DNA of 64,000 bases from Parvibaculum sp. (GTDB lineage Bacteria > Pseudomonadota > Alphaproteobacteria > Parvibaculales > Parvibaculaceae): the NCBI GenBank assembly GCA_019635965.1, contig JAHBYK010000002.1:1-64000 (forward strand), in the 5' to 3' direction. Of this stretch, positions 31,956-39,528 are shown piece by piece; within the stretch, counting starts at the first letter, position 1, and the number at the start of each line of letters is the position of its first letter. The position numbers and the translations under genes are program-made. The notes under the pieces are model-generated. The model saw only the letters and a program-made list of their open reading frames with translations. It was not told the DNA's origin and ran no database searches.

Positions 31956-34271
31956 TCAACTGCATTTCGAATAGCCGCATGAGGTGCAGGTTTCGCAGCC
32001 TTCCTGCCGCACCATGCCGCGTTCGCCGCAGCGCGGGCAGCCTTTCAGCGCGCCGCCCGTGTTGTTCGGCGGCGGCGGATCGCCCGCAACGGCGCGGAGT
32101 GCCTCCGTCACCGGGCGGCCGTCCTTCGCGGCGATGAAGCCCGTGTCGATCATGTGCTGCTCGATCACTTCGCCGATGGCGGCAAGGAGGCTCGGCACAT
32201 AGCGCCCCTTCATCCATGAGCCGCCGCGCGGATCGAACACGGCTTTCAGTTCTTCGACCACGAAAGTCACATCGCCGCCGCGGCGGAAGACGGCTGAGAT
32301 CATGCGCGTCAGCGCCACCGTCCAGGCATAGTGCTCCATGTTCTTCGAGTTGATGAAAATCTCGAAGGGACGGCGTCTCCCATCCTGCACGATGTCGTTG
32401 ATGGTGATGTAGATGGCGTGGTCGCTTTCCGGCCATTGCAGCTTGTAGGTGAAGCCCGGCAGTACCGTTTCGCGCTCGAGCGGCTTCGACATATAGACGA
32501 CGCCGTCCTTCTCGTGGCGTTCGCTATGCGCAGCCGGTGCGGCGAGCGGCAGGGCCGCCTGTTCGGCAGGCGCCGGCGTGTCGTCAACGGAAAGCACAGA
32601 GCCCCGCACATCGCTCGGGCGATAGGTGGTGCAGCCCTTGAGGCCCTTCTCATAGGCGTCCATATAAACGCTCTTGAAATCCTCGAAGGAAATATCGGCC
32701 GGCACGTTGATCGTCTTCGAGATCGAGCTGTCGATATGGTCCTGCACGGCCGCCTGCACGGCAATGTGCTCTGCGGGCGTCAGTTCCTGCGCGTTGACGA
32801 AATAGTCGGGCAGGGCCGCTTCCGTGCCGAACATCTCGTGGAAGCGGTCGACGGCGAAATCGCTCACGCGCTCCTCGCGCCGCGTACCGTCGGGCAGCAG
32901 GACCTTGCGCTTGTAGGAATAGGCAAAGACGGGCTCGATACCGGAGGAGACATTGCCTGCAAAAAGCGAGATCGTGCCGGTCGGTGCAATCGAGGTCACA
33001 AGAGCGTTGCGGATGCCATGTTCGGCAATCGCCTCACGAATGTCGCGGTCAAGGCCGGAGACGGTTTCACCGGCGAGATAGGCGTCGGCGACGAAAAGCG
33101 GGAAGGGCCCTTTCTCCTTCGCAAGATCGACCGAGGCGAGATAGGCCGCGCGCGACAGGACCTTCATCCATTTCCGGATCAGCGCGAGCGAGGCATCCGA
33201 GCCATAGCGCGTGCGGCACATGATGAGTGCGTCGGCAAGGCCCGTCACGCCGAGGCCGATGCGGCGTTTCGCCTGCGCCTCATGGCGCTGTTCGGGCAGC
33301 GGGAAGCGCGACACGTCGATCGTGTTGTCCATCGCGCGTACGGCGACGCGGACGAGCGCACCGAGTTCCGACTCGTCGATATGCGCCGTTTCGGCGAAAG
33401 GCTCTTTCACCAGTGCCGCGAGATTGATCGAGCCGAGAAGGCAGGCGCCATAGGGCGGCAGGGGCTGCTCGCCGCATGGATTCGTCGCATGGATCGTCTC
33501 GGCGTAATAGAGATTGTTCCGCGCATTGATGCGGTCGATGAAGATGACGCCGGGTTCGGCATAGTCATAGGTCGCATGAATGATGCGGTCCCAGAGTGCG
33601 CGCGCCTTCAAAGTCTTGTAGACCGTGCCGCCGAAAACGAGGTCCCAGTCCGCGTCTCTCTTCACCGCTTCCATGAAGGGATCGGTCGCGAGCACCGAGA
33701 GATTGAACATGGTGAGGCGGCCTGCCTCCTGCTTCGCCTCGATGAAGGCTTCGATGTCCGGGTGGTCGCAGCGCATGGTCGCCATCATCGCGCCGCGGCG
33801 CGAGCCGGCCGACATGATGGTGCGGCACATCGCGTCCCAGACATCCATGAAGGAGAGGGGGCCGGAGGCATCTGCCCCCACGCCCTTCACCGGCGCGCCC
33901 TTCGGGCGCAGCGTCGAGAAGTCGTAGCCGATGCCGCCGCCCTGCTGCATGGTGAGCGCAGCTTCCTTCAGGCTCTCGAAAATGCCTTCCATCGTGTCGG
34001 GGATTTCGCCCATCACGAAGCAGTTGAAGAGCGTCACATCGCGGCCCGTGCCGGCACCTGCAATGATGCGGCCTGCGGGAAGGAAGCGGTAGCCTTCCAT
34101 CGCCTCGCGGAAGCGAGCCTCCCAATGGGCGCGAGCCTCCGGGGCTTCCGCTTCCGCCAGCGCCTTCGCCACCCGGGTCCATGTATCCGCCACCGTCAGG
34201 TCGAGCGGCGTCCCGTCCTCGGCATGAAGGCGGTATTTCATGTCCCAGATCTGTTCGGCGATCGGATGCAT
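31956..34271 (-). CDS. nrdJ: Adenosylcobalamin-dependent ribonucleotide reductase (class II)
   Basis: A 771-residue class II reductase that makes deoxyribonucleotides without needing oxygen. Catalytic residues are visible: Cys84 in LFNCF and the N264-P-C266-G-E268 motif of HATNPCGEQPLPP; MQQGGGIGYDFSTLRP and APTGTISLFAGNVSSGIEP are typical. The C-terminus has a cysteine cluster (CPRCGERGMVRQEGCETCTSCGYSKC) that may bind zinc or reduce the active site. This is the short form; many alphaproteobacterial NrdJ proteins are much longer. It needs adenosylcobalamin, which the PduO-type enzyme at 49.4 kb could supply. Confidence 0.95.
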   Translation of the reverse strand: MHPIAEQIWDMKYRLHAEDGTPLDLTVADTWTRVAKALAEAEAPEARAHWEARFREAMEGYRFLPAGRIIAGAGTGRDVTLFNCFVMGEIPDTMEGIFESLKEAALTMQQGGGIGYDFSTLRPKGAPVKGVGADASGPLSFMDVWDAMCRTIMSAGSRRGAMMATMRCDHPDIEAFIEAKQEAGRLTMFNLSVLATDPFMEAVKRDADWDLVFGGTVYKTLKARALWDRIIHATYDYAEPGVIFIDRINARNNLYYAETIHATNPCGEQPLPPYGACLLGSINLAALVKEPFAETAHIDESELGALVRVAVRAMDNTIDVSRFPLPEQRHEAQAKRRIGLGVTGLADALIMCRTRYGSDASLALIRKWMKVLSRAAYLASVDLAKEKGPFPLFVADAYLAGETVSGLDRDIREAIAEHGIRNALVTSIAPTGTISLFAGNVSSGIEPVFAYSYKRKVLLPDGTRREERVSDFAVDRFHEMFGTEAALPDYFVNAQELTPAEHIAVQAAVQDHIDSSISKTINVPADISFEDFKSVYMDAYEKGLKGCTTYRPSDVRGSVLSVDDTPAPAEQAALPLAAPAAHSERHEKDGVVYMSKPLERETVLPGFTYKLQWPESDHAIYITINDIVQDGRRRPFEIFINSKNMEHYAWTVALTRMISAVFRRGGDVTFVVEELKAVFDPRGGSWMKGRYVPSLLAAIGEVIEQHMIDTGFIAAKDGRPVTEALRAVAGDPPPPNNTGGALKGCPRCGERGMVRQEGCETCTSCGYSKCS

Positions 34272-34314
34272 CGATTCTCACTTGGTCGCGTTGGCAGACG
34301 CGCAGTCTAGCACG

Positions 34315-34346
34315 AGGAACGGCACAAGATGTTCCTATTTTGTGCC
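34315..34346. promoter_or_regulatory. Interleaved inverted repeats upstream of nrdJ
   Basis: AGGAAC-N10-GTTCCT (34315-34336) and GGCACAA-N12-TTGTGCC (34321-34346) are both perfect and interleave in the order A-B-A'-B'. They lie 44-75 bases upstream of the nrdJ start. As DNA they could be two overlapping operators. As RNA they would form a pseudoknot or two exclusive hairpins. The regulator is unknown. Confidence 0.5.
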
Positions 34347-34409
34347 AGCGTACTGCACACCGGAGCCTAGGCTAAATGCCTGAAATTACTCTTTAACCAG
34401 CCATGTCCC

Positions 34410-34429
34410 CGTTACCCACATGGGTAACG
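34410..34429. promoter_or_regulatory. 20-bp palindrome GTTACCC-N4-GGGTAAC, copy 1
   Basis: CGTTACCCACATGGGTAACG is a perfect palindrome immediately 3' of the plsC stop and about 140 bases upstream of nrdJ. A second site with the same 7-4-7 arms occurs at 62926-62943. It has no T-run on either side, so it is more likely an operator than a terminator. Confidence 0.5.
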
Positions 34430-35224
34430 TCAGGCGCTTTCCACAGGCCGGGTGGCCAGTGCCGCGGGGCCTCCCGCCTCGCCGGCCAGCCGGGCGGCGG
34501 CCGTCTCGACGCGGCTTTCCAGCGTCTCCATGAAGCTCTTGCGGTCGAGGCCGGGCGGGATCGGTTCCAGGAATTCGAGCACGATGGTGCCGGGCTTGCG
34601 GGCAAAGCCGCGCCGCGCCCAGAAGAGCCCGGAGTTGACGGCGGCAGGCACGCAGGAAACGCCCAGCTGGCGGTAGAGCGCGGCCACGCCGGGCTTGTAT
34701 TCGAGCTTGGTGCCGGGGGCCGCGCGCGTGCCTTCCGGGAAGATCACGACCGGGCGGCCTTCGGCGATTGCCGCCTTGCCCTGCGCCACGAGGCGGCGGA
34801 TGGCGGCTGCCGCCGCACCCCGGTCGATCGCGATCATGCGCGTCTTTTGTGCGTACCAGCCATAAAACGGGATCCAGAGAAGCTCGCGCTTCAGCACCAT
34901 GGCCGGGCGGTTCAGGATCGCGGTCATCACCACCGTGTCCCACATGGACTGGTGCTTAGAGGCGACGAGAACCGGCCCCTGCGGCAGCGTGCCCCTGATC
35001 TCGCAAGTCGTGCCGGCGATGACCTTGAGCAGCCAGAGCGTTGCATGGGACCAGAAGGCCATCGCCTTGAAGGTCAGGCTGCGTGGCAGCAGGAACAGCG
35101 GCGAGCAGCCGATCACCATGACGACAGACATGGCATAGAAGGCGAGGTTGAAAGCCGCGGAGCGCAGAAAGAGCAGCAAGCGATTTTTCCTTCTCGCTTC
35201 AGTTGTGCATCGACGCGCGGCCAT
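34430..35224 (-). CDS. plsC: 1-acyl-sn-glycerol-3-phosphate acyltransferase
   Basis: A 264-residue PlsC-type acyltransferase that makes phosphatidic acid from lysophosphatidic acid at the inner membrane. Motif I is KHQSMWDT (HX4D), motif III is FPEGTRAAPG, and TRMIAIDRGA and VPAAVNSG also match. One or two hydrophobic segments precede motif I (about residues 22-46). The first Met overlaps the upstream YdcF-like gene by 26 bases. Confidence 0.92.
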   Translation of the reverse strand: MAARRCTTEARRKNRLLLFLRSAAFNLAFYAMSVVMVIGCSPLFLLPRSLTFKAMAFWSHATLWLLKVIAGTTCEIRGTLPQGPVLVASKHQSMWDTVVMTAILNRPAMVLKRELLWIPFYGWYAQKTRMIAIDRGAAAAAIRRLVAQGKAAIAEGRPVVIFPEGTRAAPGTKLEYKPGVAALYRQLGVSCVPAAVNSGLFWARRGFARKPGTIVLEFLEPIPPGLDRKSFMETLESRVETAAARLAGEAGGPAALATRPVESA

Positions 35225-39156: not shown

Positions 39157-39528
39157 ATGGCGCGCATTCTCGTTGCCGAAGACGAGCCGGATGTTCTGAC
39201 CTTCGTCCTGCGCGCGCTGCGTGGCGCGGGCCACGAGGCCGATGGTGCAGCGGACGGGAGCGACGCGCTTGCGGCGCTCGCCCGTGCGCGCGAAGCAGGG
39301 CGCCCGCATGACCTGCTGCTGACCGATATTCTCATGCCGGTCATGGATGGTGTCTCGCTCGCGCTGCTTGCCTCGCGCGATCAGCCGGCCCTTCGCATCA
39401 TGCTGATGACGGGGTACTCGGACCAGCGCGAACGGGCACATGGTCTCGAAGCCATTATCCACGACATATTGCTCAAGCCCTTCACGCTGGACGAGCTGGT
39501 CATGCGTGTGCAATCCGCCCTCGGCTAG
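39157..39528 (+). CDS. cpdR: Single-domain response regulator, CpdR-like
   Basis: A 123-residue receiver domain with no output domain. Acidic pocket at E8-D9, phospho-acceptor Asp57 in LLLTDILMPVMDG, Thr85 in MLMTGYSDQRERAHGLEAIIHD and Lys107 in LLKPFTLDEL. The TGYSDQRERA...GLEAIIHD text closely resembles CpdR1 of rhizobia. CpdR in its unphosphorylated form takes ClpXP to the pole and promotes CtrA degradation in Caulobacter and Sinorhizobium. Assignment rests on that likeness and its length. A CtrA-type site heads its transcript. Confidence 0.8.
   Translation: MARILVAEDEPDVLTFVLRALRGAGHEADGAADGSDALAALARAREAGRPHDLLLTDILMPVMDGVSLALLASRDQPALRIMLMTGYSDQRERAHGLEAIIHDILLKPFTLDELVMRVQSALG

Follow-up and report, generated by a model that had tools for sequence, protein, structure and literature searches.

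A LexA-type direct repeat precedes the class II ribonucleotide reductase gene nrdJ in Parvibaculum and other Alphaproteobacteria

The intergenic region upstream of nrdJ, a Parvibaculum gene for a class II ribonucleotide reductase, carries an imperfect direct repeat of the LexA (SOS) type, GCAC-AAAATAG-GAAC (34331-34345, minus strand), which differs by one mismatch from GAAC-N7-GAAC, matches the SOS boxes of the organism's own genome and is conserved in nrdJ leaders of the genus, of its family and, outside Rhodobacterales, of much of the class. From the sequence we infer, with a probability of about 85%, that LexA represses this accessory reductase gene and that DNA damage releases it from repression.

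The repeat region and its LexA-type box

In the stretch of DNA analysed here (64 kb; hereafter the window), nrdJ occupies positions 31956-34271 on the minus strand and encodes a 771-aa adenosylcobalamin-dependent (class II) ribonucleotide reductase, which matches TIGR02504 with 584.9 bits (cut-off 399.95) as well as PF02867, PF00317 and TSCPD. The repeat region (34315-34346) is intergenic, plsC (34430-35224, minus strand) being the gene on its other side. Three reductases are encoded in complete or near-complete genomes of the genus (G001 and G013, for instance): class I NrdAB, a long class II NrdJ of ~1250 aa and the short class II NrdJ considered here, which therefore looks like an accessory reductase. 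A class I small subunit was not found in the source genome G000, which is 75% complete. At some loci (L215, L216, L218-L223, G019:C5 and G009:C95) the short nrdJ frame extends over ~965-1217 codons and its match is split or cut, resembling an intein insertion.

A preliminary description of this DNA had reported interleaved perfect inverted repeats upstream of nrdJ, and these are present exactly: positions 34315-34346 read AGGAACGGCACAAGATGTTCCTATTTTGTGCC, with all four arms exact and in the order A-B-A'-B' (plus strand: AGGAAC, 34315-34320; GGCACAA, 34321-34327; GTTCCT, 34331-34336; TTGTGCC, 34340-34346; spacers of 10 and 12 nt). Read on the nrdJ strand, the two left arms together give GCAC-N7-GAAC, in which one half-site is perfect and the other mismatched: GGCACAA (34340-34346, minus strand) holds the weak upstream half-site GCAC, and AGGAAC (34331-34336, minus strand) holds the downstream half-site GAAC, which is kept in 25/25 genus leaders. 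The right arms on this strand, TTGTGCC (34321-34327) and GTTCCT (34315-34320), lie between the box and the predicted −10 element and are unconserved. On the opposite strand, the pattern GAAC-N7-GAAC reads GTTC-N7-GTTC, given as the SOS box of Caulobacter crescentus in the relevant passages of two reports (PMC9578287; PMC12907096).

The assignment as an SOS box was assessed with a position weight matrix averaging the boxes of lexA with the sites of recA, imuA, ssb/uvrA and comM, nrdJ being excluded from the training. The nrdJ site ranked first among all window positions on both strands, scoring 16.05 as compared to 12.91 for the next site when the methylase site (see below) was excluded from the matrix, and 18.54 as compared to 13.66 when it was included. 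The first lexA box and the recA box, when left out, scored 13.25 and 12.09, respectively, and thus lower than the nrdJ site. In 24 of the 25 genus leaders the box was the top-scoring place of the leader, the exception being L226; best scores were poor in L007, L010 and L226, where 13, 4 and 3 window sites scored higher, respectively. The bare pattern GNACN7GAACA was barely selective in the source genome, with 47 matches versus 41 for the reversed control.

The source genome carries the SOS pattern before lexA (G000:C1:39243-39950, with the box GAACTAAACTAGAAC upstream), recA, imuA, a comM/yifB-type gene and a cytosine methylase gene, and also between ssb and uvrA; the imuA assignment relies on a match to NF033429 (E value 1.8e-14) that falls short of the family cut-off. 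Throughout the genus, GAAC[CT]AAA[CG]TAGAAC is present at 22/22 lexA loci used (L060, a partial gene at a contig edge, was left out), and a second box with one mismatch, GTT[TG]-N7-GTTC, follows a few bases on along the opposite strand, likewise in 22/22. GAAC-N7-GAAC is also found at 17/17 genus recA loci used, L098 and L110 having been left out because of contig edges. Class-wide, the box of lexA is perfect at 29/30 loci and has a single mismatch at the remaining one. Presence or absence of lexA itself is uninformative as a test of a link to the nrdJ box, since the gene is nearly universal (detected in 79 of the 80 genomes searched, out of 92 first listed).

Some boxes of the source genome deserve mention individually. 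The gene for the cytosine-5 DNA methylase (PF00145) has a perfect box, GAACAAAATAGGAACA, ~67 nt before its start (L121:1780-1795; G000:C101), one base different from the nrdJ box. Besides the imuA box, two overlapping boxes, GAAC-N7-GAAC-N7-GAAC, are found on the opposite strand at L122:3107-3133 (G000:C106), at the 5' end of a frame that weakly resembles Y-family polymerases (imuB by eye). Another perfect box (L090:1501-1516; G000:C58) stands ~45 nt before a 118-aa frame that had no Pfam or NCBIfam match at the thresholds used.

Conservation of the box in nrdJ leaders

To follow the box across relatives, leaders were taken from 131 nrdJ loci (30 plus 101 fetched later), of which seven were dropped for want of an unambiguous N-terminal anchor (L184, L207, L208, L212, L213, L230 and L231). 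Since leaders are related by descent, the counts given below are not independent of each other. The pattern [AG]NAC-N7-GAAC occurs in 25/25 genus leaders, 76 to 113 nt upstream of the anchor, and at up to one mismatch to GAAC-N7-GAAC the box is found on the gene strand in 22/25, as compared to 3.9 in shuffled leaders. Outside the genus, all nine leaders of the family carry the box at this threshold, each of them in perfect form (shuffles 1.6). Over the class, the box is present at up to one mismatch on the gene strand in 69/90 leaders versus 12.8 in shuffles, 22/90 having the perfect GAAC-N7-GAAC and 21/90 lacking the box.

Perfect half-site pairs peak at a spacing of 7 nt (9/9 family and 22/90 class leaders), whereas other spacings from 2 to 13 nt yield 0/9 and at most 4/90, respectively. 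In the genus set alone, this spacing is not sharply distinct: at up to one mismatch, N7 is found in 22/25 leaders versus 19 for N3 and 18 for N9, and perfect pairs number 2/25 at N7 and likewise 2 at N13. The two half-sites also differ in conservation. Among 74 family and class boxes (74 were counted instead of 78, as boxes near leader ends were filtered out), the second half is GAAC in 74/74, and the first is AAAC in 34, GAAC in 31 and something else in 9. In the 25 genus leaders the first half-site reads GTAC (9), GCAC (7), GGAC (4), AGAC (3) or GAAC (2), that is, it is imperfect in 23/25, the source genome included, and has two mismatches in 3/25. Such a weak first half-site suggests that LexA would bind with intermediate affinity.

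Leaders of the other genus reductases rarely matched the box on the gene strand, in 1/16 (long NrdJ) and 1/15 (nrdA) cases, and counting either strand gave scattered matches in 3/16 and 5/15, respectively; these controls comprise 16 of the 30 long NrdJ loci and 15 of the 17 nrdA loci, which were placed by a fixed N-terminal motif (L388 and L404 could not be placed). An auxiliary tally, in which 78 of 80 leaders were read (L276 and L302 have too little upstream sequence), contains a group labelled 'other' with 42 leaders, 7 of them perfect, 32 with one mismatch and 3 with two; it is not a main count and includes matches within coding sequence (L298) and far upstream (L267, L295). A phylum-wide search returned 11 matching genomes outside the class, all of them more distant, and the leader counts cover the class.

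Rhodobacterales depart from this picture, as their nrdJ leaders have the box in 2/56 cases versus 4.5 in shuffles. This set combines 35 leaders assigned by record titles with 21 from family f22 and includes one duplicate (L407 = L331). Family f22 would belong to Rhodobacterales, judging from its BLAST neighbours and from one of its loci, which is identical to a Frigidibacter albus record (L407 and L331, 100% over 5250 bases). The three f22 genomes examined nevertheless have a lexA gene with a normal box. Among the Rhodobacterales leaders (members of L278-L341 and L407-L430), 37/56 share the sequence GGCCACAT and 12/56 carry a DnaA box. Close Parvibaculum nrdJ leaders share a further element, AATTTCAG...TTAG (34372-34387, minus strand), upstream of the LexA-type box; its CAG and TTA are invariant in an alignment of nine genus leaders.

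Predicted promoter, DnaA boxes and proposed control

A predicted extended −10 element, TGC-TAGACT (34304-34312, minus strand), is found downstream of the box and recurs as TGCTAGACT or close variants in the alignment of close relatives. The end of the box and TAGACT (34304-34309), which follows TGC, are 21 nt apart; at a spacing of 16-17 nt the −35 place would fall at 34326-34332 on the minus strand and share 1-2 nt with the end of the downstream half-site. Hence, the box abuts the predicted −35 region, and transcription is predicted to start downstream of the repeats. TTGA-like hexamers follow the box in 61/74 family and class leaders, a count made without a control, and an exact TTGAC is present within 30 nt 3' of the box in 41/74. 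A strict sigma-70 scan gave no match to this promoter.

Upstream of the box, many leaders carry the DnaA box consensus TGTGGATAA. On the gene strand, exact copies were counted in 9/25 genus leaders and copies with up to one mismatch in 20/25, as compared to 0.0 and 0.25 in shuffles, respectively, and 20/90 class leaders have an exact copy versus 0.1 in shuffles. The control leaders of the other reductases have no exact copy (long NrdJ 0/16, nrdA 0/15), and in the family leaders from outside the genus it is missing even when one mismatch is allowed (0/9). The source genome itself carries a single-mismatch copy only, TGTGGGTAA (34412-34420, minus strand). Since many leaders of the class have TGTGGAAAC merging into the AAAC half-site, DnaA and LexA sites may overlap there. 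The DnaA-box-like site of the source genome is included in a perfect 9-bp inverted repeat at 34410-34429, which follows directly on the plsC stop, has 2 nt between its arms and lacks a T run. It folds better than the repeat region (z −2.15), but was set aside because visual inspection did not show it to be retained in G002.

Mechanistically, we propose that the imperfect direct repeat GCAC-N7-GAAC (34331-34345, nrdJ strand) is an operator for LexA, which, when bound, would cover the −35 region of the predicted extended −10 promoter. As the downstream half-site touches this region, RNA polymerase would be blocked. Upon DNA damage, RecA filaments would elicit self-cleavage of LexA and thereby free the nrdJ promoter, and the extra class II reductase could then supply dNTPs for repair synthesis. 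The upstream DnaA boxes would probably add control by replication status.

Whether LexA and DnaA act jointly, through overlapping or neighbouring sites that let nrdJ track both replication status and damage, is a refinement of the LexA explanation that we regard as tentative and somewhat short of even odds. It draws on the enrichment of TGTGGATAA in genus and class leaders but in none of the controls as an exact copy, and on the junction of TGTGGAAAC with the AAAC half-site. It is weakened by the single imperfect copy in the source genome and by the lack of this element in the other genera of the family.

An extension of this idea to the class is speculative to a similar degree. Outside Rhodobacterales, the short class II reductase of Alphaproteobacteria might generally be an SOS gene with a composite LexA/DnaA operator, in which selection would maintain a weak upstream LexA half-site and thereby match dNTP supply to replication initiation as well as to DNA damage; Rhodobacterales would have rewired nrdJ out of the SOS response. 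SOS regulons are known mostly for genes of repair and mutagenesis. If the proposal is true, damaged cells in much of the class would boost their own dNTP supply, and would do so via an oxygen-independent enzyme that requires cobalamin. The loss of the box in Rhodobacterales offers a natural comparison.

Alternative readings and known systems

The preliminary description had suggested that the inverted pairs could be two competing operators or, in RNA, a pseudoknot or hairpin switch. It is true that both pairs are exact and that the window has no second interleaved pair that spans 32 nt or less with arms this long (6 and 7 nt or more); shuffles contain 0.15 on average. The woven repeat is thus uncommon, yet it is within chance for 64 kb, since at least one such pair also arises in 9/60 dinucleotide shuffles of the window; relaxing the span to 45 nt gives 8 interleaved pairs versus a shuffle mean of 5.2, and arms of 6 and 6 nt with a span of 32 nt give 2 versus 1.05. 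When the box was located by one uniform rule across all 25 genus leaders, neither right-hand arm was kept within 30 nt 3' of it in any of the 24 other leaders, those of the close relatives G002, G011 and G021 included. The complement of each relative's own left arms was likewise absent from this interval (0/24), so that the leader alignment that had been suggested as a check for covariation revealed neither a right arm nor a compensating change. The single-strand fold of the repeat region is ordinary (z −0.9 and −1.5), and the predicted transcription start lies downstream of it. Functional inverted repeats of either kind are therefore very improbable. Among the leaders compared, the inverted symmetry is private to the source genome, and what is conserved is the direct repeat of the two left arms; what stands from the earlier reading is a probable operator region before nrdJ, in the form of this LexA-type repeat.

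A regulator other than LexA could instead recognize the conserved motif [GA]NAC-AAAANNN-GAACAT, its resemblance to an SOS box being just that. This possibility gains from the deviating first half, which is AAAC in 34/74 family and class boxes and GNAC or AGAC in 23/25 genus leaders; by contrast, the first lexA box and the recA box retain GAAC. However, a one-mismatch half-site of this sort is also found in the second box of the genus lexA genes (GTTT-N7-GTTC), perfect GAAC-N7-GAAC copies occur in 9/9 family and 22/90 class leaders, and the nrdJ site ranks first in the window by the SOS matrix. Hence, we consider a different regulator improbable, although less so than functional inverted repeats, and favour LexA.

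Regulators known from other reductase genes were also considered. The preliminary description had stated that the layout is neither a consensus NrdR box nor a recognisable B12 riboswitch, and the data bear this out. The NrdR box, which is AT-rich, close to ACACWATATATWGTGT and usually paired, was sought by its core pattern, which occurs in 0/25 genus, 0/9 family and 1/90 class leaders. For cobalamin (B12) riboswitches, Rfam covariance models returned no match at the gathering threshold in the whole 64-kb window. Patterns for FNR and CtrA were found at chance level in the leaders, and across the leaders examined neither FNR nor NrdR patterns were commoner than chance.

The nrdJ site shares with the alphaproteobacterial LexA box the direct repeat and the 7 nt between half-sites, and in the source genome that box stands before lexA, recA and imuA; it differs in having one mismatched half-site and in the gene that it would control, a class II ribonucleotide reductase. 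The words 'nrd' and 'ribonucleotide' are absent from the main texts of PMC9578287, an SOS review, and PMC12907096, and 'nrd' is absent from those of a paper on LexA in Dinoroseobacter and one on damage in Caulobacter. Among the literature matches listed, a scope that leaves da Rocha 2008, Modell 2011, Erill 2004, supplements and regulon databases outside, none describes this enzyme as controlled by LexA.

Partial precedents exist in other bacteria. According to the sections of PMC8203912 that deal with it, the promoter region of Escherichia coli nrdAB has DnaA boxes; like nrdJ, it is thus a reductase gene with DnaA boxes, but it is of class I and these sections describe no LexA box. Co-regulation by DnaA and LexA is described for E. 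coli uvrB in the pertinent part of PMC6015884, and the presence of both sites in one promoter region is shared with nrdJ, whereas uvrB serves repair rather than dNTP synthesis and the LexA motif of E. coli is different. The nrdZ reductase of Sphingopyxis granuli is reported, in the portion of PMC7713065 concerned, to be under control of Fnr and anoxia and not of the SOS response, which is a point against the LexA reading. It resembles the present case as an O2-independent alphaproteobacterial reductase with a regulator site over the −35 region, but depends on Fnr, of which the nrdJ leaders examined carry no pattern. In Mycobacterium tuberculosis, LexA control has been inferred for the Rv2719c-nrdR-Rv2717c operon, as far as the relevant passages of PMC4181829 go. 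This also links LexA to dNTP synthesis, but via the regulator NrdR instead of the enzyme, and in an actinobacterium.

Elsewhere in the window, positions 39157-39528 encode a single-domain response regulator (PF00072) that is CpdR-like by eye.
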